Below, in pieces: positions 3,298 through 52,016 of a DNA stretch of 64,000 nt (its first letter is position 1; every line of letters begins with the position of its first letter). The DNA lies in contig NZ_LMKK01000001.1 in assembly GCF_001421485.1 (NCBI RefSeq), positions 191,717 to 255,716 on the forward strand, given 5' to 3'. Source of the DNA: Agreia sp. Leaf210 (lineage in GTDB: Bacteria > Actinomycetota > Actinomycetes > Actinomycetales > Microbacteriaceae). The notes below the pieces were generated by a model, which made no database searches, had not been told where the DNA came from, and saw only the letters and a program-made list of their open reading frames with translations. The position numbers and the translations under genes are program-made.

Positions 3298-4532
3298 GGC
3301 TCGTCGCCCGAGGCCCCGCTCGCCTTCTTCTTCAGAAGCGATGCGGGGCCGACGGCCCCTGACCCGAAACGCGCCGAGAGCTTGTCGATCGTGCGCTCGG
3401 CGTCGCGCCATCCGTCGGTCTGAGACTCGGCCTCGTCGACCCAGAGCGACGGCTGGTGCACAACAGACCCCGACTCGGCGAGCTGCTCCACCCGCACACC
3501 GATGAGCCGCACCCGTTGGTCGTCGCGCAGGTCGAGCGCATCGAAGATCGACTTGGCCTCGTCGTAGATCTGCTTGCCGAGGTCGCTGGGTTCGGCGAGC
3601 GTGCGCGATCGGGTGATGGTGGTGAAATCGCTGAATCTGAGCTTGAGCGCGACGGTGCGACCCTCGAGGCCGGCCCTGCGCAATCGCACGGCCACCTGGT
3701 TCGCCTGTTTGAGCAGCTCGCGATGCAGGACCCGGCGATCGGAGACGTCGAATTCGAAGGTGTTCTCGTGCCCGATGCTCTTCTCCTGGCGCTCGAGAAC
3801 GATGCCGCGGGGGTCGATGCCGAGCGCCAGGGCGTGGAGCTTCTGGCCTGACGCCTCTCCCACCGCTCTGGTGAGAGCGGGCAGCGGCATCTCGGCCAGT
3901 TCTCGAACGGTCTTGATGCCGATGCGAGCCAGTGCCGCCTCGGTGCTCGCACCCACGCCCCACAACGCCTTGATCGGCAGAGGGTGCAGGAAGTTGAGGA
4001 TCTCTGACTCGGGAACGACCAGCATGCCGTCGGGCTTGGCGCGCTGCGATGCCATCTTGGCGACGAACTTGGTCGACGAGGCGCCCACCGAGCAGGTGAG
4101 GCCGGTCTCGGCGAACACCCGCGCCCGCACCTGGGCGCCGATCTCGCTGGGACTGCCGAGCAGCCTTCTGGCACCCGACACGTCGAGGAAGGCCTCGTCG
4201 ATGCTGAGCGGCTCGACCAACGGCGTGATGTCGTGGAAGATGCGCATCACCTCGGCGGAGTAGTGCTTGTAGAGGTGCATGTGCGGCGGGAGGACATGGG
4301 CCTTGGGTGCCAGTCGCATCGCCACCGACACGGGCATGGCCGAATGCACCCCGAGACGACGCGCCTCGTACGTGGCGCTGGTCACCACTCCCCGACCGCC
4401 GGCGTGGCCGATGATGACCGGCTGGCCGCGTAGCTCGGGGTGATCGAGCAGCTCGACCGAGGCGAAGAAGGCGTCCATGTCGATGTGCAGCATGGTGGCG
4501 GTCGAGTCGTCTACCCCCGCACTGATCGTCAT
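3276..4532 (-). CDS. dinB: DNA polymerase IV (Y-family translesion polymerase)
   Basis: 418 residues. Y-family polymerases copy damaged templates at low fidelity. The catalytic carboxylates are visible: Asp18 and Asp20 in [13 protein letters not shown], and Asp112-Glu113 in [11 protein letters not shown]. Helix-hairpin-helix ([17 protein letters not shown]) and little-finger regions follow. The ATG overlaps the stop of the upstream DUF1697 gene (ATGA), so both are probably one transcript. The C-terminal 7 codons run antisense into treZ. The C-terminal end ([18 protein letters not shown]) is low-complexity and shows no clear beta-clamp motif. No LexA-type operator was recognised nearby. Confidence 0.95.
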
Positions 4533-5074
4533 TCCTCGAGTCTAGGCAGCACCAGCGACACCAGCTTGGCCGCGGTGTTCGCGTTCCGCACGGTCGCCCC
4601 CTGTCCGAACTGCCGCCAGAACGCCGCCGGGATCTTCGACGCCGACACCCCGTGGGGACACCACGCGTATACCGCCCTGCCTCCCACCCGCACGACCTCG
4701 GGAAGCAGCGCCGCGGCATCCGGCGTGGTGACGCCCGCAGGCGCAGGCCCGGGCAGGAACGAGATCATCAACCGTGAGGGATTGTCGGAGATCTCGGCGA
4801 GCGGATTCTCGTCAACGATCCTGACGAACTCCGAGCCCTCGATCACCACGAACGGCGCCCTGACACCCGTCGCTTCCACGAAGCGGGCCTCGAGATCGGC
4901 GATGTCGCCGTGCGACATCGTCGCCTCGGTGTCGAAGACGGCGTTCCCGCTGCGAAGAAGCGTCTTCACTCGGGTGAACCCGCGTTCCTCCAGCACCCGC
5001 TGGAAGTCGGGCATCGCCACAAGGGTGCTCGTTCCCACGTTGATGCCGCGCACCAGTGCCACATACGTCGTCAC
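4529..5074 (-). CDS. DUF1697 family protein
   Basis: 181 residues with a GTG start. The N-terminus (YVALVRGINVG, then LEERGFTRVKTLLRSGNAVFDT) is the hallmark of the DUF1697 family of small cytoplasmic proteins of unknown biochemical role. It overlaps dinB by 4 bases, so the two are likely co-transcribed, but this pairing does not establish a repair function. No signal peptide or membrane segment is present. Length agrees with the family (about 180 residues). The identification is firm at family level; function is unknown. Confidence 0.85.
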   Translation of the reverse strand: MTTYVALVRGINVGTSTLVAMPDFQRVLEERGFTRVKTLLRSGNAVFDTEATMSHGDIADLEARFVEATGVRAPFVVIEGSEFVRIVDENPLAEISDNPSRLMISFLPGPAPAGVTTPDAAALLPEVVRVGGRAVYAWCPHGVSASKIPAAFWRQFGQGATVRNANTAAKLVSLVLPRLEE

Positions 5075-5093: not shown

Positions 5094-5858
5094 TCATCCT
5101 GCCATCCGACGCCGCAGAATGAGCCGCTCCCCGAAGCTCCAGGCCGTCGTCACGGCGAGATAGAGGGCCGCCGCAAGCGGTACGAAGGCGGCGAACAGAA
5201 CGGTGAGATACGGCAGATAGCTCAGGATGCGCGTGAGCGATTCCGCTCCCGGCACGGTCGGGGCGACCGGCGTCGCGGGAACTGCTGGCTGAGCCAGCGG
5301 AGGAAGCGGAGCCAGGAAACGCCGTGACAACGTGGCGACGATCGCGATCGACGCCAGGATCGCGCCGAAGACGGCGACATCAGCCCACACGAGGCCGTCG
5401 CCGGAGACGGACAGCAGACTCGTGCCGAGAGGAACACCGAAGACGGTCTGCTCGAGCAGGCCGTTCGCGTGACCGTTTACGTGCAGTTGGGTGAAGAGGC
5501 CGTAGACGATCGACACGATCGGCAGCTGGATGAGCATCGGCAGGAACCCCGCGAACGGCGATGTCTTCTCTGCCGCGTAGAGGTCCATGAGCTCACGCTG
5601 CATGCGTTCGGGATTCTTCGCGTGCTTCTGTCGGAGGCGCGCTATCGCCGGGGCGAGTCGCCGGCGGGCGACCTCGGCCCGCGCCTGCGAGACTCCGACA
5701 GGGATGAGCGCACTCCGAACGAGCAGCGTGATGACGACGATGGCGGCACCGGCTGCGGCCACCGGAAAAACGGGTTCGAGCAGAAGTTCGAGGTGGACGA
5801 CGACGGCGTAGGCGGCATCGAGGACTGCGGCGACAGGGCCGAGGGTGTACGGATTCAT
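5094..5858 (-). CDS. YidC/Oxa1 family membrane protein insertase (short form)
   Basis: 254 residues with several hydrophobic segments. The family places membrane proteins into the lipid bilayer. The conserved core is visible: a first long segment (AAGAAIVVITLLVRSALIPVGVSQARA), a cytosolic helical hairpin rich in Arg/Lys (LAPAIARLRQKHAKNPERMQRELMDLY) and GFLPMLIQLPIVSIVYGLFT. It is shorter than the main actinobacterial YidC and is not near rpmH/rnpA, so it is probably a second, accessory paralogue. The upstream DUF6412-like gene on the same strand is a likely operon partner. The gene symbol is left empty because the chromosomal main copy is probably elsewhere. Confidence 0.85.
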   Translation of the reverse strand: MNPYTLGPVAAVLDAAYAVVVHLELLLEPVFPVAAAGAAIVVITLLVRSALIPVGVSQARAEVARRRLAPAIARLRQKHAKNPERMQRELMDLYAAEKTSPFAGFLPMLIQLPIVSIVYGLFTQLHVNGHANGLLEQTVFGVPLGTSLLSVSGDGLVWADVAVFGAILASIAIVATLSRRFLAPLPPLAQPAVPATPVAPTVPGAESLTRILSYLPYLTVLFAAFVPLAAALYLAVTTAWSFGERLILRRRMAG

Positions 5859-6318: not shown

Positions 6319-7323
6319 ATGGAATTCAGATACCTCGGCAAGTCCGGGCTCAAAGTCTCGGAAATCACATACGGCAACTGGCTGACCCACGGATCGCAGG
6401 TCGAGAACGACATCGCGGCGCAGTGCGTCGAAGCCGCGCTGACCGCCGGCATCACGACCTTCGACACCGCAGACGCCTACGCGAACACGGCGGCGGAGAA
6501 GGTTCTCGGCAAGGCGCTGAAGCATCAGCGCCGCGAATCGCTCGAAATCTTCACGAAGGTGTACTGGCCCACCGGCCCGAAGGGCCCCAACGACGTGGGC
6601 CTCTCGCGCAAGCACATCATGGAGTCGATCGACGGATCGCTGCGTCGGTTGAAGACCGACTACGTCGATCTCTACCAGGCTCACCGCTACGACGTCGAGA
6701 CGCCCCTGGAAGAGACGATGCAGGCGTTCGCCGACATCGTGCGCCAGGGCAAAGCCCTCTACATCGGCGTGAGCGAATGGAACGCGGAGCAGATCCGAGC
6801 CGGCCACGCCCTGTCGAAAGAGCACGGCTTCCAGCTGATCTCGAACCAGCCCCAGTATTCGATGCTGTGGCGCGTCATCGAAGACCAGGTCGTGCCGACG
6901 TCGGCCGAGCTGGGTCTGTCGCAGATCGTCTGGTCTCCCGTCGCCCAGGGAGTGCTCACCGGCAAGTACAAGCCGGGGGCTGAGCTTCCGCCGGGAAGCC
7001 GCGCGACCGACGAGAAGGGCGGCGCAGACATGGTGAAGCGCTTCCTGAACGACGACGTGCTGACCCGGGTGCAGCTGCTTCAGCCCATCGCGCACGACCT
7101 CGGTCTCACGATGGCGCAGCTCGCCATCGCGTGGGTGCTGCAGAACCCCAACGTCGCCTCGGCCCTCATGGGAGCATCGCGCCCCGAGCAGGTCGAGTCG
7201 AACGTGAAGGCCGCCGGGGTGACCCTCGACGAGGGCATCCTGGCGCGCATCGACGAGGCGCTGGGCTCTGTCGTCGTGCGCGACGCCAAGCACACGGTCT
7301 CGCCCGAGACACGTCCCGTCTGA
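6319..7323 (+). CDS. Aldo/keto reductase
   Basis: 334 residues, an NAD(P)H-dependent oxidoreductase of the (alpha/beta)8 AKR family acting on carbonyl compounds. The catalytic tetrad is visible: Asp and Tyr in TFDTADAYANTAAEKVLG, Lys in EIFTKVYW and His in VDLYQAHRYD. The cofactor-binding end (SALMGASRPEQVESNVKA) is present. The subgroup resembles the voltage-gated K+ channel beta-subunit-like reductases (MEFRYLGKSGLKVSEITYGNW). The start is uncertain: a GTG at 6310 lies 4 bases after GAGGAG, while the ATG at 6319 fits the family N-terminus best. The substrate is unknown. Confidence 0.92.
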   Translation: MEFRYLGKSGLKVSEITYGNWLTHGSQVENDIAAQCVEAALTAGITTFDTADAYANTAAEKVLGKALKHQRRESLEIFTKVYWPTGPKGPNDVGLSRKHIMESIDGSLRRLKTDYVDLYQAHRYDVETPLEETMQAFADIVRQGKALYIGVSEWNAEQIRAGHALSKEHGFQLISNQPQYSMLWRVIEDQVVPTSAELGLSQIVWSPVAQGVLTGKYKPGAELPPGSRATDEKGGADMVKRFLNDDVLTRVQLLQPIAHDLGLTMAQLAIAWVLQNPNVASALMGASRPEQVESNVKAAGVTLDEGILARIDEALGSVVVRDAKHTVSPETRPV

Positions 7324-7329
7324 TCGGCG

Positions 7330-8259
7330 CTATCGGGGGGTGATGGCCGGCCCGTCGACGCCCAGCCGGGCGAGCCTGCGGCGTGCCGCAAGCTCGCTCG
7401 GCGGATCTTTCTCCAGGGTTCCCGCGATAACACGAAGGGTCAGTCGCGTGAACGCCGCCACGGGCAGTCGGATGGGCCCGAGCGCCGGGGTGCGCAGCCG
7501 CAGCATGCCCCGATAGGGCTCGGGGATGGATGCGACGGCTCCCGCGAACAGGAGGGCGTAGCCCGGCATCAGAGAGCGGCCCAGCGGAGGTCGACGGATG
7601 AACGACACGGCATCGGCCACACGCTTGTTGTAGACCAGCTGTCCCGCATCGAGGTACTCGCGCAACTGCGATGAGAGCTCCGCCTCCGAACGCGGCGGGT
7701 TCTGCACGCCCATCAGCTCGCCCGCCTTCGCCCACTCGCGCACGTATGCATCAGGGCCACCCGGGATCGGCTTTCCGTAGAGTTTCGCCGTCGCGAGGAA
7801 TGAATCCGTGAAGGCGAGGTGCACCCAGCTCAACAACTCGGGGTCGTTCGCTGAATAGGGGCGCTCCGCACCGTGCGCATCGAGGTAGCTGCCGACGACC
7901 CGCTCGTGCATCTTCAGCACCCAGTTCGATGTGCCGATCGCCGTCCGAGTGTCTCCGTAACTCACCGTGAAGATCCACCGGATCGTTCCGGCCAGTCGTC
8001 CGAGCGGATCCTCCTTGTAGCGGGAGTGATCGTGCACGCCGGCCATCGCACCCGGGTGCAGCGCCTGGATCAGCAGCGCTCGGATCCCCGCGACGATCGT
8101 CGACATTCCGCCGTGCACGCTCCACGTGGCAGAGCCCGGCGCGAAGAAGCCTCCGTCGTCGCCCTCGTCGAGGCGCACCGACCACTCCGGCGGCTCGTTG
8201 CTGGAGCCGCTCAGGACGAGGCGGATACGATCGCGCAGGGCGGCGGGAACGAGTTTCAC
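7330..8259 (-). CDS. Oxygenase MpaB/DUF2236 family protein
   Basis: 309 residues from a GTG at 8259 preceded by GAGAGGAAA. The family contains MpaB-type oxygenases and latex-clearing protein relatives, several of which bind haem through conserved His residues. Visible blocks are LIQALHPGAMAGVHDHSRYKEDPLGRLAGT, YGDTRTA, WVHLAFTDSFLATAKLYGKP and the C-terminal LRLRTPALGPIRLPVAAFTRL region. It is the last gene of a tight four-gene operon with a type III PKS, an ICMT-like methyltransferase and a flavoprotein, 11 bases after the flavoprotein stop. Context suggests it oxidises the polyketide or a lipid product; this is inference. Confidence 0.82.
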   Translation of the reverse strand: MKLVPAALRDRIRLVLSGSSNEPPEWSVRLDEGDDGGFFAPGSATWSVHGGMSTIVAGIRALLIQALHPGAMAGVHDHSRYKEDPLGRLAGTIRWIFTVSYGDTRTAIGTSNWVLKMHERVVGSYLDAHGAERPYSANDPELLSWVHLAFTDSFLATAKLYGKPIPGGPDAYVREWAKAGELMGVQNPPRSEAELSSQLREYLDAGQLVYNKRVADAVSFIRRPPLGRSLMPGYALLFAGAVASIPEPYRGMLRLRTPALGPIRLPVAAFTRLTLRVIAGTLEKDPPSELAARRRLARLGVDGPAITPR

Positions 8260-8270
8260 GGTGTTTCCTC

Positions 8271-9317
8271 TCAGCGAGCGAGACGCTCGATGGCGAGCCC
8301 GAAAAGGCCGGGCAGCGTGCGGGCCGCCGGCACGATGAGGGGCCGCAGGGGCGACTGCGCTGCGGCGAGCAACGCCGAGGTGATCACACGGAAGTCGCGG
8401 CTTACGCGCACCCATTCGCGGTCGTACACAGCCGCCGACCGGCTATCGGCGGCACCGATCGCCTCGACGGCCGCCCTGGCGTGGGCGAGGCCCACCCGGA
8501 TGCCCTCGCCGGTGAGTGCGTCGACATAGCCCGAGGCGTCGCCCAGCAACAGCACCCGGCCGACACTCCTGGCCGAGCTGCGCTGCCGCAGTGGTCCGGC
8601 ACCGCGGAGCGCCTCCACGGCGTCTGCCCGTCCGAGCCGAGCGCGTAGCTCCGGCATGCGGGCCAGCACGTCGTCGAAATCCGTGCGCGGCGGGCCGAGA
8701 ACGGCGACGCCGACGAGGCCTCCGGCCAGCGGCGTGACGTACGCCTCCGCATCCGCAACCCAGTGCACCTCGACGAGGTCTGTCCACGGCTCGACCGCAT
8801 AGTGCTTGCGCAGACCGAAGCGGCGGCGGTCGACTCGCGGGCTCGGCAAACGCTCGAGCCCCGTCACCCGCCGCACGGTCGAGTGCAGCCCGTCGCACGC
8901 GAGCAACCACGACGCGCGCACGTCGCCGACCGTCACGCCGTCGGCACGCTGCACCACGTCGGTGACCCGGCCATCCACCCGCGTCACGCCCAGCTCGTCG
9001 GCACGGGCCGCGAGCGCGTCGTGCAGAGCCGTGCGGCGCACGCCGAGGCCGGAGGCTCCGGCGAAGCGGTGCTCGGCCGACCTGGTCGCATCCGTGTAGC
9101 GGAAGCCCGCGATCGGAACGCCCGGTGGATGCACCCCCAGACGAGCCAGGGCGCCGACCGCTCCGGGCATAAGACCCTCGCCGCAGGCCTTGTCGATCGG
9201 AAAGCTCCGCGGTTCGATGACGGCCACGGAGTACCCGGCCAGACGCGACTCGATGGCGCCGGCGAGTCCGATGGGGCCCGCTCCCACGATGGCGACGTCG
9301 ACGTCGACCGGTGTCAT
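8271..9317 (-). CDS. FAD-dependent oxidoreductase (geranylgeranyl-reductase/hydroxylase-like)
   Basis: 348 residues. The Rossmann FAD motif is at the N-terminus (VAIVGAGPIGLAGAIESRLAG), followed by an acidic strand end (AVIEPR), the NADPH/FAD motif LLACDGLHSTVRR and the C-terminal FAD motif VLLLGDASGYVDALTGEGIRVGLAHA. The GEGI signature is shared with geranylgeranyl reductases and aromatic hydroxylases. Its ATG overlaps the upstream methyltransferase stop (ATGA). In Streptomyces griseus the srsABC operon pairs a type III PKS with a methyltransferase and a flavoprotein hydroxylase, so hydroxylation of an alkylresorcinol ring is the most likely role. That assignment rests on analogy. Confidence 0.85.
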   Translation of the reverse strand: MTPVDVDVAIVGAGPIGLAGAIESRLAGYSVAVIEPRSFPIDKACGEGLMPGAVGALARLGVHPPGVPIAGFRYTDATRSAEHRFAGASGLGVRRTALHDALAARADELGVTRVDGRVTDVVQRADGVTVGDVRASWLLACDGLHSTVRRVTGLERLPSPRVDRRRFGLRKHYAVEPWTDLVEVHWVADAEAYVTPLAGGLVGVAVLGPPRTDFDDVLARMPELRARLGRADAVEALRGAGPLRQRSSARSVGRVLLLGDASGYVDALTGEGIRVGLAHARAAVEAIGAADSRSAAVYDREWVRVSRDFRVITSALLAAAQSPLRPLIVPAARTLPGLFGLAIERLAR

Positions 9318-9862
9318 CTCGGGGCGACCGGCTCTTCGCCGAGCGCCGCCTCGAGGGCACGTTCCTCGACCGGAATGCGGAATCCGAACAGGAGCACGGC
9401 GTTGAGCACGGTGAACGCGAGGGCGGTCACCCAGTTGCTGTGCACCAGAGGGAGGGCGATGCCCTCCGCGATGACGACGATGTAGTTGGGGTGGCGGAGC
9501 CACCGATACGGTCCCCGCAGCACGAGAGGCAGACCGGGCACCACGATGACGCGCGTGTTCCAGCGCCGACCCAGCGAGCCGATGCACCACCAGCGCAGAG
9601 CCTGACTCGCCAGTGCGACGACGAGCATAGGCCACCCCAGCCACGGGATGAACGGCCTGTCGGCGAGGAGGGTCTCGACGAGGCACGCCAGCAGGAGGCC
9701 CGTGTGCAGAGCCACCATGGGCCCGAAGTGCCGTCTGCCGAACTCCATGCCGCCGCGAGCGAAAGCCCAGGCCGCGTTGCGCGTCGAGACCACGAGCTCG
9801 ACGATGCGCTCGCCCCCGGTCAGCAGGATGAGAATCACGTAGAGCGGCACCGACAGGGTCAC
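9314..9862 (-). CDS. Isoprenylcysteine carboxyl methyltransferase (ICMT)-family protein
   Basis: 182 residues from the GTG at 9862, which overlaps the type III PKS stop (GTGA) and is preceded by GGAGA; an ATG at 9880 would add six residues. It is an integral membrane methyltransferase-like protein with about five hydrophobic segments. The family SAM-binding signature GPYRWLRHPNYIVVIAEGIALPLVHSNW and the later PVEERAL acid pair are visible. Members next to type III PKS genes methylate phenolic lipids (SrsB in Streptomyces griseus), so O-methylation of an alkylresorcinol or quinol is the likely role here. No prenylated protein substrate is expected in this context. Confidence 0.85.
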   Translation of the reverse strand: MTLSVPLYVILILLTGGERIVELVVSTRNAAWAFARGGMEFGRRHFGPMVALHTGLLLACLVETLLADRPFIPWLGWPMLVVALASQALRWWCIGSLGRRWNTRVIVVPGLPLVLRGPYRWLRHPNYIVVIAEGIALPLVHSNWVTALAFTVLNAVLLFGFRIPVEERALEAALGEEPVAPR

Positions 9863-10938
9863 TTCGAATCTCCAGACCATCTCATCAGAACGAGTTCGGC
9901 CGAGACGCCCGGCCCGAGCGCGAAGAGGGCGCACAGTTCGCCGGCCGCCGGTGTGTGATCGCGGATGCTGTCGGCCAGCACGTGCAGGACCGAGGCCGAC
10001 GACAGATTGCCGACGCGGGCCAGCGAATCCCAACTGGCGTCGAGGGCATCGGCCGGAAGCTGGAGCGCGTCGCTGAACGCCTCGAGCACCCTCGGTCCGC
10101 CGGGATGCGCGATCCAGCGCCCGATTCTGTCGACGGCGGTGTCGTGGTCGGAGAGGAACAGCGTCATGTCATGACCGAAGTGCTCGTCGATCACGTCGGC
10201 GACCCCGGCCGTCAAGACGATGCGGAACCCCGTTTCGCCGGGGTTGAACCCGAGCACGTCTCGAGTGTTGGGGTAGAGGGCGCTGCGCACGCCCACGACG
10301 TCGAATCCCTCGTCTGTGCGTGCGGCCGCGCGCTCTGCGCCGACCATCACGACGGCCGCCGCTCCGTCGCCGAAGAGTCCCGACGCCACGAGGTTCGCCA
10401 TCGAGTCGTCGTCGCGCTGCACGGTGAGCGAACACAGCTCGACCGCGATCAAGACGGCCACGCCGTGGGGGTGACCGACGAGATAGTCGTCGAGCCTGGC
10501 GATGCCCGCCGCTCCAGCAACGCAGCCGAGGCCGAACATCGGCACGCGCTTCACATCCGATCTGAGCCCGATTCGCGGAACCAGGAGGGCATCGATGGAG
10601 GGCGCGGACACGCCGGTGACCGAGGTGAACAAGACGAAGTCGACTTCGTCGGCGGCGATCCCGGACTGCGCCAGGGCATCGGCGAGAGCCTCCTCGGCGA
10701 GATCGGTCGCGGCCTCGATGAAGATGTCGTTCGTGGTCGTGAAGCTCTGCTCTTCGAGGTACCGCTCGATCGGCAGCACCAGGTGACGACGCTCGACCCG
10801 GCTCGATTCGTGCAGACGCCGCAGCACAGCCTGCTTCGACCGGTCACGCGTGATCATCGGCGCTATCGCCTCGGTGATGTCCTTCTGGGCATACGAGTTC
10901 GAAGGAAGAGCGGCTGATACCCCGACGATTCGCGACAC
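9859..10938 (-). CDS. Type III polyketide synthase (chalcone/alkylresorcinol synthase family)
   Basis: 359 residues with a GTG start. The homodimeric KASIII-like enzyme extends an acyl-CoA with malonyl-CoA and cyclises the chain. The full triad is present: Cys139 in MFGLGCVAGAAGIAR, His278 in WIAHPGGPRVLEAF and Asn311 in RVGNLSSASVLHVL. The C-terminal LFALGPGVSAELVL block is also typical. It heads a four-gene overlapping operon (PKS, ICMT-like, flavoprotein, MpaB-like). No in-cluster acyl carrier or thioesterase is seen. A divergent acyl-CoA ligase may provide the starter. The product is probably an alkyl-resorcinol or -pyrone type phenolic lipid; chain length cannot be read from the sequence. 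Confidence 0.92.
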   Translation of the reverse strand: MSRIVGVSAALPSNSYAQKDITEAIAPMITRDRSKQAVLRRLHESSRVERRHLVLPIERYLEEQSFTTTNDIFIEAATDLAEEALADALAQSGIAADEVDFVLFTSVTGVSAPSIDALLVPRIGLRSDVKRVPMFGLGCVAGAAGIARLDDYLVGHPHGVAVLIAVELCSLTVQRDDDSMANLVASGLFGDGAAAVVMVGAERAAARTDEGFDVVGVRSALYPNTRDVLGFNPGETGFRIVLTAGVADVIDEHFGHDMTLFLSDHDTAVDRIGRWIAHPGGPRVLEAFSDALQLPADALDASWDSLARVGNLSSASVLHVLADSIRDHTPAAGELCALFALGPGVSAELVLMRWSGDSK

Positions 10939-10944
10939 GCTCGC

Positions 10945-10950
10945 ACGGTA
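10945..10950 (-). promoter_or_regulatory. Leaderless -10 element of the type III PKS operon
   Basis: On the minus strand TACCGT lies exactly six bases before the GTG start at 10938, with no Shine-Dalgarno sequence between. TANNNT followed by 6-7 bases and the start codon is the known layout of actinobacterial leaderless promoters, where transcription begins at the start codon. No good -35 hexamer was recognised. Confidence 0.45.
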
Positions 10951-11036
10951 GCACGATGCATGCGTCTCGATCGACGCCCATGAGACAGCCCTTCGACTGC
11001 GTCATAATGACCTCACGACGACGCGAAGGGCAACGA

Positions 11037-12728
11037 ATGACCATCGAGACCGACCGGCCATGGGTTTCCCAGTATGCAGACGGCGTACCCTCCACGATCG
11101 AGCTGCCGACGGGGTCTCTCGTCGACATGCTCGACGCTTCTATCAGTGCGTTCCGCTCCAACGTCGCGCTCGACTTCTTCGGTTCGACCACGACCTATGC
11201 CGAGCTCGGAATGCTTGTGGCACGAGCGGCCGAAGGGCTGCGCCGCGCGGGCGTCGGCCACGGCGACAGGGTCGCCCTGGTTTTGCCGAACTGCCCGCAG
11301 CACGTCATCGCCTTCTACGCCGTGCTTCGGCTGGGTGCGGTCGTCGTGGAGCACAACCCGCTCTACACGGACCGTGAGATGCGCCATCAGTTCGAAGACC
11401 ACGGCGCCAAGGTCGCCATCGTGTGGGACAAGGTGGGTGACCGCATCCACGCGATGCCCGCCGACGTTGCGTTCGACACGGTCATCGCGGTCGATGTGAC
11501 CCGCGCCATGCCGCTCTCCAAGAGACTCGCCCTGCGCCTGCCGGTGCCGAAGGCCCGCGAGGCGCGTAAGGCGCTCACCGCAGACTCGAAGCGCAGCACG
11601 CCGTGGGAGAAGCTCCTCAATCACCGGCCGATCCGACGCTCCGTGCCACGGCCCTCGGTCGACGACCTCGCCGTGATCCAGTACACCAGCGGCACGACCG
11701 GAACGCCGAAGGGCGCGAAGCTCACCCACCTCAATCTGCATGCGAATGCCCTGCAGGGGCGAGCGTGGGTTCCCGGGATGGTGGCGGGCAAGGAGGTCAT
11801 CTACGCCGTCCTGCCCATGTTCCACGCATATGGGCTCACGCTCTGCCTCACCTTCGCGATGAACAGCGGTGCCCGGCTCGTGTTGCTGCCGAAGTTCGAC
11901 GTCGACCTCGTCCTCGACGCGGCCAAGTCGCATCCGCCCACGTTCCTTCCCGCCGTGCCGCCCATCTACGAGCGGCTCGCCCTGGGTGCCGAGAAGCGCA
12001 AGGTCGATCTCACGGGCATCCGGTTCGCCATCTCGGGTGCAATGAATCTGCCGGTCTCCACCGTCGAACTCTGGGAGAAGGCCACGGGCGGTTACCTGGT
12101 CGAGGGCTACGGACTCACCGAGACCTCCCCCGTCGCACTGGGCAATCCCATCGGCCCGAGCCGTCGGCCCGGCACCGTCGGCGTGCCCTTTCCCAGCACG
12201 GAGATCCGCGTGGTCGATCCCGACGACACCTCCGTCGATAGGGCGCCGGGCGAAGAGGGCGAACTGCTGATCCGTGGCCCGCAGGTGTTCCAGGGGTACT
12301 GGCAGAAGTCCGATGAGACCGACGCCGTGCTGCTCGACGGCGGCTGGTTCCGCACGGGCGACATCTGCACGCAGGATGCCGATGGCTTCGTCACGATCGT
12401 CGACCGCATCAAGGAGCTCATCATCACGGGCGGCTTCAACGTCGCGCCCTCAGAGGTCGAAGACGCGCTCCGACAGCACCCCGGAGTCGCCGATGTGGCT
12501 GTGGTCGGCATGCCCAGCGGCGGCGGCGGAGAAGACGTCGTAGCGGCGGTGGTGCTGTCTTCCAAGGCCGACTTCGACGAGAAGAAGTTCCGCGACTGGT
12601 GCCGCGATCAGCTCACCGCGTACAAGGTGCCGAAGAGGATCGTGGTCATCGACGAGCTCCCGAAATCGCTGATCGGCAAGGTGCTGCGCCGGGCGGTCAG
12701 GGAGCAGCTGCTGGCCGACCGCGGCTGA
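11037..12728 (+). CDS. Long-chain acyl-CoA ligase (AMP-forming)
   Basis: 563 residues of the ANL superfamily. The enzyme activates a carboxylic acid as acyl-AMP and transfers it to CoA. The P-loop motif is at 216-228 (YTSGTTGTPKGAK), the A5-type motif GYGLTETSPV at about 357-366, the hinge region at TGDICTQDADGFVTIVDRIKELIITGG, and the C-terminal catalytic Lys548 in PKSLIGKVLRR. The ATG at 11037 has GAAGGG upstream. It is transcribed divergently from the type III PKS operon, so it could prepare a fatty acyl starter, but a general beta-oxidation role is also possible. A CATAAT element at 11003-11008 is a weak -10 candidate. Confidence 0.92.
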   Translation: MTIETDRPWVSQYADGVPSTIELPTGSLVDMLDASISAFRSNVALDFFGSTTTYAELGMLVARAAEGLRRAGVGHGDRVALVLPNCPQHVIAFYAVLRLGAVVVEHNPLYTDREMRHQFEDHGAKVAIVWDKVGDRIHAMPADVAFDTVIAVDVTRAMPLSKRLALRLPVPKAREARKALTADSKRSTPWEKLLNHRPIRRSVPRPSVDDLAVIQYTSGTTGTPKGAKLTHLNLHANALQGRAWVPGMVAGKEVIYAVLPMFHAYGLTLCLTFAMNSGARLVLLPKFDVDLVLDAAKSHPPTFLPAVPPIYERLALGAEKRKVDLTGIRFAISGAMNLPVSTVELWEKATGGYLVEGYGLTETSPVALGNPIGPSRRPGTVGVPFPSTEIRVVDPDDTSVDRAPGEEGELLIRGPQVFQGYWQKSDETDAVLLDGGWFRTGDICTQDADGFVTIVDRIKELIITGGFNVAPSEVEDALRQHPGVADVAVVGMPSGGGGEDVVAAVVLSSKADFDEKKFRDWCRDQLTAYKVPKRIVVIDELPKSLIGKVLRRAVREQLLADRG

Positions 12729-12744
12729 GCCGGGAGTTGGAGAC

Positions 12745-13275
12745 CTAGGAGGCTTCGGGCAGGGCCGAGGCCGGAAACACGGGCGCGGACAGCAGGGCGA
12801 CCTTCACGGATCCACCCTTGGTGACCTGCTCGCCCAGCTGCACGAAGCCGAGCCGATCGTGGAATGCCAGAGATCCGGGGTTCGGCGGATCGAGGTTGAC
12901 CTCGCACGTGACTTCCGCGAGTCCGGCCAGCTCCGCCTCGGCGAAGACACGCTCGTACAGGATCTGTCCGAGACCCCTGCCGCGCATGCCCTGGTGTACG
13001 ACGATGCGGTCGACGTACAGAAAGTCACCGCCGCGCTCTTCGAACCAGCGGTAGTTCTCGCTGTCGTAGTCGTTGCCCGCCGTCAGCGTGATGACGAGAC
13101 CGAGCGGGTCGCGCGGGGAGGCGTCATCGACGACGATGACGGCCGAATGCGCCATCGACACGAGATCGAGCAGTTCCGCCTCGTCGAGCAGATTGACCGC
13201 GGGTATCGCCCCGTTGTTCATCGCCAGAAGCGAAGTCAGATCGGTGGCGTCGATATCTCTGGTCGTCAAGGTCAC
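12745..13275 (-). CDS. GNAT family N-acetyltransferase
   Basis: 176 residues with a GTG start. GNAT enzymes move an acetyl group from acetyl-CoA to an amine. The acetyl-CoA motif A is visible as VDRIVVHQGMRGRGLGQILYERV (Arg-Gly-x-Gly loop), followed by EVTCEVNLDPPNPGSLAFHDRLGFVQLG, the usual motif B with its Asn-Pro and Phe-x-x-Lys/Arg-x-Gly-Phe elements. The substrate is unknown. It converges on the acyl-CoA ligase (16 bases apart) and shares no operon with it. Confidence 0.85.
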   Translation of the reverse strand: MTLTTRDIDATDLTSLLAMNNGAIPAVNLLDEAELLDLVSMAHSAVIVVDDASPRDPLGLVITLTAGNDYDSENYRWFEERGGDFLYVDRIVVHQGMRGRGLGQILYERVFAEAELAGLAEVTCEVNLDPPNPGSLAFHDRLGFVQLGEQVTKGGSVKVALLSAPVFPASALPEAS

Positions 13276-13371
13276 CCCGAGAGCCTATCCGCACCGGCTC
13301 GGCGGAATGCGCACCGCCATGATGGACTTATACCCAGGACTATGACGAGCACTGCCGACAGGAGCCCCATC

Positions 13372-13944
13372 GTGACCATCGACTGGCTGACACTGCAGAA
13401 CACCGCCCACGCCGAGTTCACCGCTCGCCTGAACGCGGTGACCGATTGGAACGCGCCTACGCCCGACACAGACTGGAACACCCGTCAGCTCGTGACCCAC
13501 GTCATCGAAGAGCAGCAGTGGGTGCCGCTGCTGCTCGAGGGCCGCAGCCTGCGTCAGGCGCGATCGCTCAAGCGGCCGCTGTCGAGCGATCTCGCGGCAG
13601 AGTGGGCTCAGTACTCGAAGGCTGCCACCGACGCGTGGCGATCGGCTGCACCGGATGCTCAGGTGCAGCTCTCGTACGACACAGTGACAGTCACCGAATA
13701 CCTGCGCGAGCAGGTCTCCGACGTCACGATCCACACCTGGGACCTCGCGCGGGCGACCCGGACCGCTGAGGTCATCGACGAACGGCTGATCGCGGCTGTC
13801 TACACGGTCTTCGAACCGCAGAAAGAGACGCTCGAAGCCTCGGGTCTGTTCAGCTCGCCGATTCCCGTTCCCGAGCACGCGCCGCTGCAGTCGAAACTGC
13901 TCGCTCTGACGGGCCGCGACGACAGGCTTCCGCTCTCCGCGTAG
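13372..13944 (+). CDS. Maleylpyruvate isomerase-like (MDMPI/DinB-fold, TIGR03086-type) protein
   Basis: 190 residues from the GTG at 13372, which has AGGAG 8 bases upstream; an in-frame ATG at 13342 would add ten residues. The fold is a DinB/MDMPI four-helix metal-binding bundle: DWNTRQLVTHVIEEQQWVPLLLEG supplies the first His, and VSDVTIHTWDLARAT the later His-x-Trp-Asp-x-Ala signature. Characterised relatives include mycothiol-dependent maleylpyruvate isomerase, and actinobacteria carry many paralogues of unknown substrate. A mycothiol-linked or metal-dependent role is inferred from the family only. Confidence 0.75.
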   Translation: MTIDWLTLQNTAHAEFTARLNAVTDWNAPTPDTDWNTRQLVTHVIEEQQWVPLLLEGRSLRQARSLKRPLSSDLAAEWAQYSKAATDAWRSAAPDAQVQLSYDTVTVTEYLREQVSDVTIHTWDLARATRTAEVIDERLIAAVYTVFEPQKETLEASGLFSSPIPVPEHAPLQSKLLALTGRDDRLPLSA

Positions 13945-14032: not shown

Positions 14033-14962
14033 ATGTCGACCGCACCCCCGCTATCCATCCCCGATCAGCACGGCAGACGCGTGATCATCACCGGCGCCAA
14101 CAGCGGGCTCGGCCTCGAGGCGGCACGCCGCCTCTCTGCCGCCGGCGCCCACGTCGTGATGGCCGCCCGAACGGCGGAGAAGAACGCCGGAGCCGCCGAC
14201 ACCATCCGCAAGACGGTTCCCGACGCATCCCTGCAGCTCGAGAGCCTCGATCTCGCATCTCTGGCCAGTGTGAGGGCGTTCGCCGATCGCATGAATGCCG
14301 AGAAGACGCCCACCGACATCCTGATCAACAACGCAGGCGTTATGGCGGTGCCCACGAGGCACACCACCGAAGACGGCTTCGAGCTGCAGTTCGGCACGAA
14401 CCACCTCGGGCACTTCGCTCTCACGGCGCAGCTGCTTCCCTCGCTGACAGCCGCCGAAGCGCCCCGGGTCGTCACCCTGTCGAGCGTGATGCACTGGATC
14501 GGTCGCATCCGCTTCGGCGACCTCAACGCCGAGAAGAAGTACAACGCGTGGCTCGCCTACGGCCAGTCGAAACTGGCCAACCTCCTCTTCGCCCACGAGT
14601 TGCAGCGCCGAAGCGACGCCGCCGGATGGGGGCTGCTGAGCGCTGCTGCGCATCCTGGTTCGAGCCGCACGAATCTGCAGAACGCGGGCCCGCAGTTGGG
14701 CCGCGACAAGCCGGCCAGCGCTCTCGTCGAGCGATTCATGCAATCGCCCGGCTTCTCTCAGGACGCCGAGCAGGGCACAGAACCCGAACTGTTCGCCGCG
14801 ACCTGGGCGAGCGTGTCCGGCGGCGACTACGTCGGGCCCACGGGCGCATTCGGCCTGACGGGTCCTCCCGGGCGCGCCAAACAGAGCCGACGGGCCCTCG
14901 ATCAGAGGGTGGCCATGCGGCTCTGGGCTGCGTCAGAAGACCTGACCGGCATCGACTTCTAG
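14033..14962 (+). CDS. Short-chain dehydrogenase/reductase
   Basis: 309 residues from an ATG with GAGGAG at 14022-14027. The classical SDR elements are all present: cofactor loop [24 protein letters not shown], the catalytic Ser in [11 protein letters not shown], and [11 protein letters not shown] carrying the Tyr-x-x-x-Lys pair. The arrangement and the [16 protein letters not shown] block resemble the retinol-dehydrogenase/WW-domain oxidoreductase-like SDR group. The preferred substrate is unknown. It stands alone: convergent to gatB on the right and about 90 bases after the preceding gene. Confidence 0.9.
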
Positions 14963-16497: not shown

Positions 16498-18032
16498 CAG
16501 ACGGCTCCCTCATCGGTCGCGTTCATTTCACTAAAAGAGAGGTCGGGAGCCTGGCTCAGGAGCGTGTGGCCCCATTTCTGCTCGAGCAGGGCTTCGAGCG
16601 CCGCCGCGACGCCATAGAGTCGGGCGTCTTCGCGCGCCGGTGCCAAGAACTGGATGCCGACGGGCAGACCGTCTTCGGCGGCCAGTCCTGCGGGAACCGA
16701 GATCCCGGGGATGCCGGCGAGGTTGGCCGGGATCGTCGCGATGTCGTTGAGGTACATCGACAGCGGATCGCCGGTCTTCTCGCCGAGCTTGAACGCCGTG
16801 GTCGGAGCCGTCGGCGACACCAGCACGTCGGCGTTGGCGAACGCAGCTGCGAAGTCGCGCTGCACGAGCGTGCGCACCTTCTGGGCACTGCCGTAGTAGG
16901 CATCGTAGTAGCCGGCGGAGAGAGCGTAGGTGCCGAGGATGATGCGGCGCTTCGTCTCTGCACCGAAGCCCTGTTCGCGGGTGGCGCTCATCACGTCTTC
17001 GACGGTTCCGCCACCCTTCGGGTTGACCCTCAGGCCGAAGCGCACGGAGTCGAACTTGGCGAGGTTGCTGGAGGCCTCGGCGGGCATGATCAGGTAGTAC
17101 GCGGCGATCGCGTGTTCGACGCTCGGAAGCTCGACCTCGGTGATGATCGCGCCGGCCCCCTCGAGAAGGGCCAGGGCTTCGCGGAAGCGTTCCATGACGC
17201 CCGGCTGGAAGCCGTCGCCCTGGAGCTCTTTGATGACGCCGATACGGAGACCCGCGACGTCGGCATTGCGCACGGCCTCGGCGAACGAGGGCCAGACGTC
17301 GGTAAGTGACGTGGAGTCTCGCGGGTCGTGGCCGCCGATCACGTCGTGCAGCAGGGCCGAGTCGAGGACGGTGCGCGAGACCGGGCCGATCTGGTCGAGG
17401 CTGGAGGCGAGGGCGATGGCGCCGTAGCGGCTGACTCCGCCGTACGTGGGCTTGAGGCCCACGGTTCCCGTGACGTGGGCGGGCTGGCGGATGGATCCGC
17501 CGGTGTCGCTGCCGAGCGCGAAGGGAGCTTCGAAGGCGGCGACAGCCGCGGCAGAGCCACCACCGGAGCCTCCGGGGATACGCTCCAGATCCCACGGGTT
17601 GTGCGTCGGGCCGTAGGCGGAGTGCTCGGTCGACGAGCCCATGGCGAACTCGTCCATGTTGGTCTTGCCCAGCGAGACGAGGCCCGCGGCCCGCAGCTTG
17701 GTCATGACCGTGGCGTCGTAGGGCGGTACCCAGCCCTCGAGGATCTTCGAGCCGCTGGTGGTGGGCATGCCCTTGGTGACGATGACGTCTTTGATGGCGA
17801 TCGGCACACCGGCAAGGGGGTGCAACTGCTCACCGGCCGCACGGCGACGGTCGATATCGGCCGCCTCGGCGAGGGCGCTGTCGGATGCGACATGCAGGAA
17901 CGCGTGCACCGCGCCTTCGACCGCGGCGATGCGGTCGAGGTGGGCCTGCGTGGCCTCCACCGAGCTCACCTCTTTCGAGGCGAGCTTGGCTGCGAGGGCG
18001 TCGGCGGTGAGCCTGGTCAGATCGGATGTCAT
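16497..18032 (-). CDS. gatA: Asp-tRNA(Asn)/Glu-tRNA(Gln) amidotransferase subunit A
   Basis: 511 residues. The amidase subunit releases ammonia from glutamine for GatB. The Ser-cisSer-Lys triad is visible as Lys81 ([10 protein letters not shown]), Ser156 ([14 protein letters not shown]) and Ser180 ([12 protein letters not shown]). The ATG at 18032 shares a base with the gatC stop (TAATG). The frame is open further upstream, but that region is the gatC gene in another frame, so the longer start was rejected. Function and complex are well established for the family. Confidence 0.97.
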
Positions 18033-46087: not shown

Positions 46088-47047
46088 CTAAGCGAAGACG
46101 ATGAACAGCACGTAGGCTGCGGCGGCCGACGGCAGGATCGAATCGAGGCGGTCGAGGAACCCGCCGTGTCCGGGCAACCACGTGCTCATGTCTTTGATGC
46201 CGAGATCGCGCTTCAGCAACGACTCTGACAGGTCGCCGGCCGTCGCGGTCAGCACCAGCACTGTTCCGAGGATGAGACCGAACCACCACGGCATGTCGAG
46301 CAAGAAGATCGAGAGCAGCACGCTCGACGCGATACCGAAGATCAACGATCCGGCGAAACCCTCCCAGGTCTTCTTCGGGCTGATGGTCGGCGCCATCGGA
46401 TGCTTGCCGAAATTCAAGCCCGTCGCATAGGCACCGACGTCGACCGACACCACGACGATGAGGAAGGCCATGACCCACCACTGGCCGTCGTCATTGCGCA
46501 GAAGCAGCGCCGCGATGCTGCCCAGGAACGTGACGTAGACCTGAATGAACACCCCGCCGGACATGTCGAGCGCCACGCTGCGCATCGACGCGCGATGGCG
46601 CGGAATCGCCAGCTCGGCCAACCGCCAGAGGACCACAAGCAGCACACCGCCGATGGTCGCGATCCACTGCCACTCCTCGCCGAAGTAGAACGACACGGGC
46701 ACGACGACGACGGGCGCGATCACGCTCGGAATACGGGGAACATCGCGGCCGGCGTGACGAAGCGCCGTCGCCAGTTCGAATGCGGTGAATGCCACGAGCA
46801 CCGTCGCGAAGACGACGAAGATGTCTTTGATGAAGAGCAGGCTGAAGATCATGACCAGCCCCAGCCCCAGGCCGATGCCGATCGCGCTCACGAGATTGCG
46901 GCCCGAGCGGGCGGTGATCTTGTCATTCGCCCGATCGAACTGATCCCGGCGCTCGCGCACCTTCGCTTCGAACTCGGCGCGGCTCATCCCCGGATGCTTG
47001 CGCGCCGGATCCGCCTCAGACGCGGGAGTGTCGGGATCGTTCGTCAT
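46088..47047 (-). CDS. cdsA: Phosphatidate cytidylyltransferase
   Basis: 319 residues. It makes CDP-diacylglycerol, the precursor of phospholipids, in the membrane. A basic cytosolic N-terminus of about 45 residues precedes eight hydrophobic segments. The family C-terminal signature is visible in LSESLLKRDLGIKDMSTWLPGHGGFLDRLDS (Ser/Lys, Asp-x3-Pro-x-His-Gly-Gly, Asp-Arg-x-Asp). It follows frr by nine bases on the same strand, the conserved frr-cdsA order. The usual dxr gene is not seen next in line. Confidence 0.95.
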   Translation of the reverse strand: MTNDPDTPASEADPARKHPGMSRAEFEAKVRERRDQFDRANDKITARSGRNLVSAIGIGLGLGLVMIFSLLFIKDIFVVFATVLVAFTAFELATALRHAGRDVPRIPSVIAPVVVVPVSFYFGEEWQWIATIGGVLLVVLWRLAELAIPRHRASMRSVALDMSGGVFIQVYVTFLGSIAALLLRNDDGQWWVMAFLIVVVSVDVGAYATGLNFGKHPMAPTISPKKTWEGFAGSLIFGIASSVLLSIFLLDMPWWFGLILGTVLVLTATAGDLSESLLKRDLGIKDMSTWLPGHGGFLDRLDSILPSAAAAYVLFIVFA

Positions 47048-47056
47048 CGGTGTGGC

Positions 47057-47611
47057 CTAGATCTCGAGGAGTTCGACTTCCTTGCGCTTCAGCGCGTCGT
47101 CGATGCCGTCGACGTGCGACTTGGTGAGCTGCTCCAGCTCTTTCTCGGCGCGCGCCACCTCGTCGTCGCCGACCTCGCTCTTCAGCGCGTCGAGTTCGTC
47201 TTTCGCCTTACGCCGGATGTTGCGCAGCGACACCTTGCCGTCTTCGGCCTTCGTGCGCACGATCTTCACGTACTCCTTGCGACGCTCCTCGGTGAGCTCG
47301 GGCAACGTGACCCGGATGACGTTGCCGTCGTTCGACGGGTTGGCACCGAGATTGGGAGTGTCGCGGATGGCCTGCTCGATGTCGCGCAGCGCGCCCTTGT
47401 CGTAGGGCGTGATGAGCATGGTGCGCGCCTCGGGGTTCTGGAGGCCGGCCAGCTGGCTGAGCGGCGTCGGGGTGCCGTAGTAGTCGACCAGGATCTTCTG
47501 GAAGAGCCCCGGGTTCGCGCGCCCGGTGCGAATGCTCGAGAAGTCTTCCTTCGTGTTGTCGACGGCTTTCTTCATGCGCTCTGTTGCGCCGGCCAGTACA
47601 TCCGCGATCAC
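47057..47611 (-). CDS. frr: Ribosome recycling factor
   Basis: 184 residues, GTG start. Together with EF-G it splits post-termination ribosomes. The conserved blocks [61 protein letters not shown] and [20 protein letters not shown] are complete, and length is standard. It lies 48 bases after pyrH, the usual pyrH-frr order, so both are likely co-transcribed. Confidence 0.98.
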
Positions 47612-47659
47612 GGCAACTCCTTCTTTTGGTTCTTCAGTAGTTTAGGGCGACGTGCTCGG

Positions 47660-48385
47660 TCAGTCGTGCGACGTGCTGACCAGGGTGCCGATGCGCTCGC
47701 CCAGAATGGCCCGGGTCACATTGCCCTGGGGCTGCATGCCGAAGACCATCATCGGCATCTTGTTGTCCATGCACAGGCTGAACGCGGTCGAGTCGACGAC
47801 CTTGAGTTCGCGCTGCAGGGCGTCGAGGTAGGTGAGCCTGTCGATCTTCTTCGCATCGGGGTTGGTGCGCGGGTCGGAGTCGTACACGCCGTCGACACCG
47901 TTCTTGGCGACGAGCACGACGTTCGCGCCGATCTCGAGAGCGCGCTGCGCTGCGACGGTGTCGGTCGAGAAGTAAGGCAGACCGGCTCCCGCTCCGAAGA
48001 TCACCACACGACCCTTCTCGAGGTGACGCTCGGCGCGGAGCGGAATGTACGGCTCAGCGACCTGCGTCATCGAGATGGCGGACTGCACACGCGTCGCAGC
48101 CCCCGCCTGCTCGAGGAAGTCCTGGAGCGCCAGTGCATTCATCACCGTGCCCAGCATGCCCATATAGTCGGCGCGACCGCGGTCCATTCCGCGCTGCGAG
48201 AGCTCGGCACCCCGGAAGAAGTTGCCTCCACCGACGACGATCGCGATCTCCACCTGCTTGGCAGCTGCGGCGATCTCCCTCGCCAATTCGCTGACCACGT
48301 CGGGGTTGACGCCGAGGGAGCCTGCACCGAAGGCCTCACCAGAGAGTTTGAGGAGTACCCGGCGCCGGGGTTCTGATGAAGTCAT
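47660..48385 (-). CDS. pyrH: UMP kinase
   Basis: 241 residues from the ATG at 48385 (a longer frame reaches 48418 but lacks family similarity). It phosphorylates UMP to UDP. The amino-acid-kinase fold shows [68 protein letters not shown] and [20 protein letters not shown]. In most actinobacteria pyrH directly follows tsf; here an LCP-family gene stands between them. Confidence 0.97.
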
Positions 48386-49833: not shown

Positions 49834-49853
49834 TCGAAACGGACGTCGTGGTG

Positions 49854-50681
49854 TTACGCGCCGACCTTGAAGCGCGCGAAGCCGGAGACGGTGATATCGG
49901 CGTCGGCGAGCACCTTCTTGACCTGCTGCTTGTTGTCCTTCGCGTAGTCCTGCTCGAGCAGGGCGACCTGCTTGTAGTAGGCACCGAGGCGACCCTCGAT
50001 GATCTTCGGCAGGGCGGCCTCAGGCTTGCCCTCGCCACGCGAGATCTCCTCGACGATGCGACGCTCGTTCTCGACAGCCTCGGCAGGTACGTCCTCGCGA
50101 GCGAGGAATTCCGGGTTGGCGAACGAGATGTGCTGAGCGATCGATCGAGCCGTGTCGGCATCCGAGCCCGTGTAGCCCACGACCACGCCGACCTGCGGGG
50201 GCAGATCCTTCGAGGTCTTGTGCAGGTAGATCGCGAACGCGTCGCCGGTCACGACGGCGAGACGACGGAGCTCGATCTTCTCTCCGAGGATCGCCGCCTC
50301 GTTGCTGATCAGGTCGGCGACGGTTCCACCGGCCGCGGGAGCCGCGAGGGCCTCCTCGACCGAGGTGGCACCGGCCGCGACGGACGCGTCGAGGACGGCG
50401 TCGGCCAGAGCGACGAACTTGTCGTTCTTCGCAACGAAGTCGGTCTCGCTGGCGAGCTCGATCAGGGTCGCGGTGTTGCCGCTCTCCTTGGCCGCGACGA
50501 GGCCTTCGCTGGTGGAGCGGTCGGCGCGCTTCGCGTTCGACTTGGCACCCTTGAGGCGAAGGATCTCCGTCGCCTTCTCGAGGTCGCCGCCGGCTTCGAC
50601 GAGTGCGTTCTTGCTGTCGACCATGCCGGTGCCGAGGCGCTCGCGCAGGGTCTTGAGGTCAGCCAGGCTGAAATCTGCCAT
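49854..50681 (-). CDS. tsf: Elongation factor Ts
   Basis: 275 residues. Nucleotide exchange factor for EF-Tu. The N-terminal UBA-like helix pair LKTLRERLGTGMVDSKNALVEAGGDLEKATEILRLKG and the core block ELASETDFVAKNDKFVALADAV are typical, as are the two dimerisation subdomains. It follows rpsB after 51 bases, the standard order, and a strong hairpin closes the transcript. Confidence 0.98.
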   Translation of the reverse strand: MADFSLADLKTLRERLGTGMVDSKNALVEAGGDLEKATEILRLKGAKSNAKRADRSTSEGLVAAKESGNTATLIELASETDFVAKNDKFVALADAVLDASVAAGATSVEEALAAPAAGGTVADLISNEAAILGEKIELRRLAVVTGDAFAIYLHKTSKDLPPQVGVVVGYTGSDADTARSIAQHISFANPEFLAREDVPAEAVENERRIVEEISRGEGKPEAALPKIIEGRLGAYYKQVALLEQDYAKDNKQQVKKVLADADITVSGFARFKVGA

Positions 50682-50732
50682 GGTGTGCTTCCTTACTTGA
50701 CTAAAGAGGTGAGATATCGAGGAAGGCGCGAA

Positions 50733-51767
50733 CTACTTCGCGGGGGTCTTCTCGGCGTCGGTAGCCTCGGCCTCGAGGCGGGCCTCGGTCGCGGCGTCGG
50801 ACTCGACGGCGTGCTCGGGAACGATCGACGCGTCTGCGGCGGCCTCGTGCTCGGCGACGACGGCGTCTGCGTCGTTCTCTTCGGTGGGCGTCTCCGCAGC
50901 GATGACGTCGGCGACAGCGGCCTTCGTGGCGTCGGACTCGACAGCGTTCTCGACGAGACCGTCGACGGCCTCGATCTTCTCGGACTCGGTCGACGGGTTC
51001 TCCGACGCCTGGAGGAGCTCGCGCTCCCACTCGGCCAGGGGCTCGACGGCCGAGACGTTGCCGGCCTCTTCGGGCTTCTGGTGACGCTGGATCAGGCCCT
51101 CGGCGGCGGCGTCGGCGATGATGCGCGTGAGCAGGCCCACGGAGCGGATCGCGTCGTCGTTGCCCGGGATCGGGTACTGCACGTCGTCGGGGTCGCAGTT
51201 GGTGTCGAGGATCGCGATGACGGGGATACCGAGCTTGTGCGCCTCGTCGATGGCGAGGTGCTCCTTCTTGGTGTCGACGATCCAGATCGCCGACGGCGTC
51301 TTCGTGAGGTTGCGGATACCGCCGAGGCTCTTCTGCAGCTTGACGAGCTCGCGCTTCTGAATCAGGAGCTCTTTCTTCGTGTAGCCGCGCGTGGTGTCGT
51401 CGAAGTCGACCTCTTCGAGTTCCTTCATACGTGCGAGACGCTTGGAGACCGTCTGGAAGTTGGTGAGGAGGCCACCGAGCCAACGCTGGTTGACGTAGGG
51501 CTGGCCGACGCGCTGAGCCTGCTCGGCGATGGAGCCCTGAGCCTGCTTCTTGGTTCCGACGAAGAGGACCGTTCCGCCGTGGGCGACGGTCTCTTTGACG
51601 TAGTCGTACGTCTTGTCGATGTGCACCAGCGACTGCTGCAGGTCGATGATGTGGCTGCCCGAGCGCTCCGTGAGGATGAATCGCTTCATCTTCGGGTTCC
51701 AACGACGGGTCTGGTGTCCAAAGTGAACGCCGCTGTCGAGCAGCTGGCGAATGGTTACAACGGCCAT
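50733..51767 (-). CDS. rpsB: 30S ribosomal protein S2 with long acidic C-terminal extension
   Basis: 344 residues from the ATG at 51767, with AGGAGACGG upstream; longer in-frame starts reach into the leader and are rejected. The S2 signatures [24 protein letters not shown] and [29 protein letters not shown] are complete by residue 215. From about 255 on, an Ala/Glu/Asp-rich tail of about 90 residues follows, where E. coli S2 ends near 241. Tails of this kind occur in Microbacteriaceae but this one is long. The 255-base upstream region likely holds its promoter and leader. Confidence 0.97.
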
Positions 51768-51917
51768 GAGCCGTCTCCTGTTCTTCGACGGCGGCTGCGC
51801 AGGTCGCAGTTCATCACGAACTGTTCGCGCCACAGGCACACGTCAATCGGTTTCTTACCGTCGACCTGTTGGCGACGGTTCCTGGTGCCCAGCACGCCTC
51901 CGACCACCGATCACACA

Positions 51918-51934
51918 CTCCTGCAGAGCAGGAG
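51918..51934 (-). promoter_or_regulatory. Hairpin in the rpsB leader
   Basis: CTCCTGC and GCAGGAG form a perfect 7-bp stem with a three-base loop, about 150 bases before the rpsB start. S2 controls its own operon through leader RNA in several bacteria; whether this hairpin takes part is unknown. The rest of the gap 51768-52016 shows no gene. Confidence 0.35.
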
Positions 51935-52016
51935 GGAGAGGGGAGGACCGAGTGGAGTCGTGACAAAAAGTCAGCGGGCACGCGTAGTCACCCCGACGGA
52001 TCGAGGTGCTCCGGAA

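Follow-up and report, generated by a model that had tools for sequence, protein, structure and literature searches.

A probable srsABC/pkqABC-type lipid phenol or quinone operon, set among apparently older neighbouring genes in Agreia sp. Leaf210

Four closely packed genes around a type III polyketide synthase (PKS), and a fifth that reads away from them, raise the question of which of the five can be trusted as parts of one pathway. They lie in a 64,000-nucleotide stretch of Agreia sp. Leaf210 (contig NZ_LMKK01000001.1), called the window throughout. An original prediction, made from the letters of this stretch, had treated the four as a self-contained route to a phenolic lipid, with the divergent acyl-CoA ligase as a partner. 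Our analysis makes it quite likely that the window holds an ordinary srsABC/pkqABC-type operon, with a lipid phenol or quinone as its product, placed within an older gene neighbourhood, and that the ligase and the MpaB-like protein are not dedicated parts of it. The features concerned are the following.

9859–10938, minus strand: type III PKS of 359 aa with a GTG start (Pfam Chal_sti_synt_N PF00195, 78 bits; Chal_sti_synt_C PF02797, 57 bits)
9314–9880, minus strand: ICMT-family methyltransferase, SrsB-like (Pfam ICMT PF04140, 97 bits)
8271–9317, minus strand: flavin adenine dinucleotide (FAD)-dependent monooxygenase-like protein, SrsC-like, with an ATG start (Pfam FAD_binding_3 PF01494, 47 bits)
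7330–8259, minus strand: MpaB/Lcp-family putative haem oxygenase with a GTG start (Pfam MPAB_Lcp_cat PF09995, 157 bits, computed on a call of 7330–8262)
10939–11036, no strand: 98-bp intergenic region from which the PKS and ligase genes diverge, with one weak sigma-70-like match
11037–12728, plus strand: acyl-CoA ligase (Pfam AMP-binding, 314 bits; NCBIfam NF004114, 900 bits)

Coordinates, overlaps and Pfam/NCBIfam families agree with the predicted layout of four packed minus-strand genes and a plus-strand ligase. The PKS and ICMT genes overlap by 22 bp and the ICMT and FAD genes by 4 bp, the gap from the FAD gene to the MpaB gene is 11 bp, and 98 bp separate the PKS start from the ligase start. 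The starts of the ICMT, FAD, MpaB and ligase genes were picked by gene geometry and family alignment and are putative, the mechanical open reading frames (ORFs) beginning farther upstream. In the window, the MpaB gene is probably co-transcribed with the FAD gene. The genome (3.54 Mb) groups with Agreia, which bears out the earlier description of it as Microbacteriaceae-like; by PKS, its closest named relatives among the best 80 of 578 candidates are Agreia species, at 84–86% identity.

To describe the surroundings of the PKS in related bacteria, 249 Microbacteriaceae genomes were scanned; here and below, the PKS, MpaB and ligase counts for these genomes refer to the matches listed. The PKS was counted as present at a match above 200 bits, which was found in 89 genomes, and more distant type III PKSs (about 29–36% identity) were excluded from this table. 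Loci were fetched from 60 of the 89 genomes, and 80 more came from a scan of named genomes (the best 80 of the 578 candidates); removal of 18 repeats left 122 distinct loci besides the window. The loci were picked by PKS similarity, and the fractions describe that PKS clade only. ORF clustering of the loci gave many antisense shadows. The ICMT gene came next after the PKS in 121 of the 122 loci, and the FAD gene followed the PKS by at most 1.2 kb in 111. Among the 11 exceptions, the contig ended too soon in one (L100), the FAD gene lay farther downstream in two (L070 and L079) and it stood upstream of the PKS on the opposite strand in another (L151), while no FAD relative was found in the fetched stretch of L044, L054, L055, L118, L126, L145 and L156 (best E value on recheck, 0.003). 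Order and strand of the three genes were kept in most related loci, which came from Microbacteriaceae, Cellulomonas, Terrabacter, Nocardioides, Georgenia and Streptomyces. The claim that the first three genes follow the logic of srsABC is thus upheld, and by sequence the PKS-ICMT-FAD core is the known srsABC/pkqABC operon.

The MpaB gene behaves differently. It was found (E value of 1e-25 or below) in 151 of the 249 genomes, 67 of which also carry the PKS; 84 have MpaB only, 22 the PKS only and 76 neither. This co-occurrence (Fisher P value, 0.0004) is not taken as evidence, given the relatedness of the genomes and the many genes that small ones lack. Of the 67 genomes with both, only 15 had MpaB and the PKS no more than 4 kb apart. 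In the other 52, the two genes were on different contigs (33 genomes) or at least 450 kb distant on the same contig (19 genomes), the nearest of these same-contig pairs being 451 kb apart. The 15 genomes fall in 4 of the 29 genera that hold both genes (5 of 5, 5 of 5, 4 of 4 and 1 of 4 genomes). MpaB as a regular pathway gene is rejected on this low rate of linkage and on the 84 genomes that have MpaB without this PKS. A pathway role stays possible because linkage does occur in those four genera. In a check set beforehand, of how regularly the PKS is separated from the other three genes, ICMT and FAD were rarely apart from it (1 and 11 of 122 loci) and MpaB was apart in 52 of 67 genomes, which counts against the predicted unit. 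The idea of a self-contained four-gene pathway therefore holds for PKS, ICMT and FAD and fails for MpaB. The MpaB gene offers a useful case for testing how well adjacency predicts function.

The ligase and MpaB genes were also found together away from the operon. One genus supplies four genomes with no PKS match above 200 bits (L182, L190, L191 and L192) in which they stand head to head, 85–229 bp apart, with an AKR-family gene next. Among the 94 genomes with listed matches for both ligase and MpaB, to which these four do not belong, the two genes lie within 12 kb of each other in 27: five are Agreia with the operon in between, and in the 22 from outside Agreia the ligase is within 8 kb of MpaB, with the PKS elsewhere in 7 and not on the PKS list in 15. 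Relatives of the GNAT, DUF1697, MpaB and AKR genes stand together in L195 and L196, which come from two genomes of another genus. In the window, the operon and ligase are flanked by the following genes.

4529–5074: DUF1697 gene
5094–5858: YidC-like gene
6358–7323: aldo/keto reductase (AKR)
12745–13275: GNAT
14033–14962: SDR

Ligase/MpaB pairs without such a PKS nearby suggest that ligase and MpaB are neighbours first and partners only possibly. The best reading of these observations is that in Agreia the srsABC operon sits inside an older ligase-MpaB-AKR-GNAT-SDR-DUF1697 neighbourhood, and that it would be the operon, not those neighbours, that moved.

The PKS is of the Pks11/SrsA/PkqA kind, its best solved relative being Pks11 of Mycobacterium tuberculosis (335 bits over residues 1–354), and it is the sole PF00195 match in the whole genome. 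The predicted catalytic triad is intact, with C139, H278 and N311 all present. Three residues ahead of His278 lies W275, invariant across 14 aligned PKS sequences and probably equivalent to Trp281 of ArsB, which has been tied to resorcinol formation; Pks11 also carries that Trp (PMC9927152), so W275 does not decide between resorcinol and pyrone. The ICMT gene is the sole PF04140 match in the genome, and its product is a probable O-methyltransferase of the phenolic ring. For the FAD protein, a model with a predicted local distance difference test (pLDDT) score of 90 gave OxyS hydroxylase, flavin halogenases and PnpA monooxygenase as the best Foldseek matches; the sequence also scores with the geranylgeranyl-reductase and menaquinone-reductase models of NCBIfam, under their cut-offs.

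By analogy with the known systems, the most likely product is a methoxylated alkylresorcinol or quinone, and each chemical step, the product and the function are put forward here on that footing. The PKS would load a long-chain acyl-CoA, extend it with malonyl- and/or methylmalonyl-CoA and close the chain to an alkylresorcinol, with some alkylpyrone possible. The ICMT-type enzyme would then O-methylate the ring and the flavoprotein hydroxylate it, giving a methoxy-alkylhydroquinone that may oxidise to the benzoquinone. The benzoquinone could serve as a membrane lipid or as an auxiliary electron carrier.

For the MpaB-like protein, the structural model (pLDDT, 87) had Lcp as its top three Foldseek matches (5o1l/5o1m; probability 0.98–0.99 with weak E values of 0.05–0.15), and a sequence search against solved structures gave no match at E values up to 1. 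Across 26 aligned sequences, residues R88, T92 and H118 do not vary; mapped by spacing and without superposition, they may correspond to the haem-site residues listed for Nro1 and LcpK30 (in LcpK30, R164, K167, T168 and H198; PMC12724181). At the position of Lys167 in LcpK30, spacing suggests Gly91. This putative oxygenase has PF09995, an Lcp-like model and a conserved His and Arg in common with these haem enzymes. A second PF09995 gene elsewhere in the genome scores higher (249 versus 157 bits).

Several points weigh against an ordinary operon inside an older neighbourhood. The ligase and AKR copies in the genus with the head-to-head pairs are 60–62% and 39–41% identical to those of the window, and some may be paralogues. 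In three of those genomes (L182, L191 and L192; genomes G031, G163 and G214), a distant type III PKS of 32–34% identity lies 31, 13 and 28 kb, respectively, from MpaB; these distances come from 60 listed distant type III PKS matches, 34 of them in genomes with a listed MpaB match. Both directions of change fit, and the operon may have moved in or been lost elsewhere. The linkage of MpaB in 4 of 29 genera takes two arrangements, with MpaB downstream of the operon in Agreia and Subtercola and, in Naasia and its relatives, upstream of it. Lastly, a pyrone-only product is possible, since Pks11, the closest solved relative, is deposited as an alpha-pyrone synthase. The corresponding alternative, an operon whose PKS produces alkyl-alpha-pyrones in the manner of Pks11, with methylation by the ICMT enzyme and some other task for the flavoprotein, appears quite unlikely to us: a hydroxylase-fold flavoprotein retained in 111 of 122 loci fits ring hydroxylation.

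The pattern of MpaB linkage bears on whether, in Agreia, Subtercola, Naasia and their relatives, MpaB provides a fourth step, oxidising or cleaving the alkylresorcinol or quinone or an unsaturated tail, or replacing an absent flavoprotein. Among 123 PKS rows, the window included, all 14 downstream and 9 upstream MpaB linkages fall in one PKS-tree clade of 44 rows, where the linkage may have arisen once or twice. The near pairs are all within 4 kb, well short of the next same-contig pair, and the window's own gap to the FAD gene is small. With MpaB, PKS and ICMT but no FAD relative in the fetched stretch, L054, L055 and L118 make up three of the nine loci linked upstream, and published work describes bacterial MpaB proteins as haem enzymes that cleave C=C bonds (PMC12724181). 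However, within that clade the Frigoribacterium/Marisediminicola/Lacisediminihabitans group, with 16 rows, shows no MpaB linkage in the fetched stretch, MpaB adjoins the ligase with no such PKS near, and most genomes either keep MpaB and PKS apart or lack one of them. We regard a four-gene pathway as improbable, and as about equally unlikely the bolder proposal that an MpaB haem oxygenase was recruited to the srs operon in one Microbacteriaceae clade as a fourth, or FAD-substituting, step acting on the lipid quinone or its tail. If true, such recruitment would add a tailoring reaction new to the phenolic lipids of type III PKSs. That the ligase is there specifically to supply the starter, under joint control from the promoter region between the divergent genes, seems rather doubtful. 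The 98 bp of the window recur as 97–99 bp in six other Agreia loci, and long-chain ligases occur in the pks11/pks18 clusters of Microbacterium (PMC7438953), but a ligase more than 55% identical adjoins the PKS in only 6 of 122 loci, each of them from the genus of the window (one further match, 35% identical, is in a Cellulomonas locus). Five genomes of the genus Subtercola have the same srs operon, yet their ligase is on another contig or 0.8 Mb off, and the ligase (E value of 1e-200 or below) is present in 171 of 249 genomes versus 89 for this PKS. These results, together with the ligase/MpaB pairs that have no such PKS nearby, do not sustain the ligase as a dedicated partner; a contribution as starter supplier is plausible. 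In the intergenic region, the weak sigma-70-like match (10980–11008, plus strand) is one found against 0.3 expected in shuffles of 7100–11200 and is not evidence of function.

The spacing between FAD and MpaB genes varies within Agreia. In four loci (L092, at 12556–13579, L093, L125 and L128), 978–979 bp with frames for an AraC-family regulator and a glyoxalase/VOC-family protein part the two genes; this insert is not in the window, and two other Agreia loci have gaps of 94 and 106 bp by alignment ends. A. bicolorata is one Agreia with additional genes at this junction. Separately, five distinct loci (L054, L055, L062, L117 and L118) carry an OsmC-family gene upstream of the PKS, and in the four of these with MpaB upstream it sits between MpaB and the PKS.

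The operon type is known from the literature, and its presence in Agreia and Subtercola has already been published (PMC6518244). Streptomyces griseus srsABC likewise joins a type III PKS, an ICMT methyltransferase and a monooxygenase in one operon (PMC6669644; PMC4573997), in which SrsB methylates and SrsC hydroxylates (PMC6669644); unlike the window, the described core is without MpaB. A Streptomyces coelicolor host for type III PKS genes has also been built (PMC4573997). In our comparison the relatives S. globisporus, S. microflavus and S. anulatus were used in place of S. griseus, and identities to S. globisporus, S. clavifer and S. microflavus are 51–52% for the PKS and 52–54% for the FAD protein. 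The same three functions in the same order make up pkqABC of M. smegmatis and Streptomyces MNU77, with quinones and intermediates detected in MNU77 spores, where C14–C19 chains were observed; the quinones are proposed as electron carriers (PMC9927152). For the Agreia operon, such a product and respiratory role are putative. In Marisediminicola antarctica ZS314T, srsABC comprises the same three genes (PMC6669644), and in G084, a genome that probably belongs to M. antarctica, PKS-ICMT-FAD was found with MpaB 2.6 Mb away. For Subtercola vilae, three alkylresorcinol genes are described whose synteny is shared by Agreia, and the strains used for comparison of the cluster are Agreia sp. Leaf335 and A. 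bicolorata VKM Ac-1804; the passages on this cluster name an AKR and an SDR and do not mention MpaB (PMC6518244). An alkylresorcinol cluster is listed for another Subtercola as well (PMC9287328). Within the searches made, no paper was found that joins MpaB with alkylresorcinol or with a type III polyketide synthase.

No UbiA prenyltransferase was found by Pfam among the window operon and the flanking genes scanned. The agqABCD cluster of Actinoplanes includes one, and in S. anulatus (L155) a UbiA prenyltransferase-family gene lies at 8992–9945 on the minus strand, upstream of the PKS in an srs-like operon. Collectively, these comparisons add one more Agreia genome to the range of a well-studied lipid-quinone operon, and they show which of the five genes here can safely be read as a pathway. 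Should the polyketide-quinone role prove true, a second quinone system in the form of such operons could be common among Microbacteriaceae.

Elsewhere in the window, ARAGORN called a tRNA-Ser(tga) at 17417–17509 on the plus strand, antisense within a gatA-like gene (named from its translation). The call was rejected as a probable false positive because Rfam, at its gathering threshold, finds no RNA family anywhere in the 64,000 nucleotides. A 658-aa frame at 46400–48376 on the plus strand has a comparatively low third-position GC of 0.66 and no Pfam or PHROGs match. At 49848–55274, also on the plus strand, is an 1808-aa frame with a third-position GC of 0.67, below most neighbours, in which Pfam finds only a C-terminal M23 peptidase. 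Among phage families it has a weak match to a tape-measure protein, confined to the peptidase part, and it may encode a large surface protein or one of phage-tail-like type.

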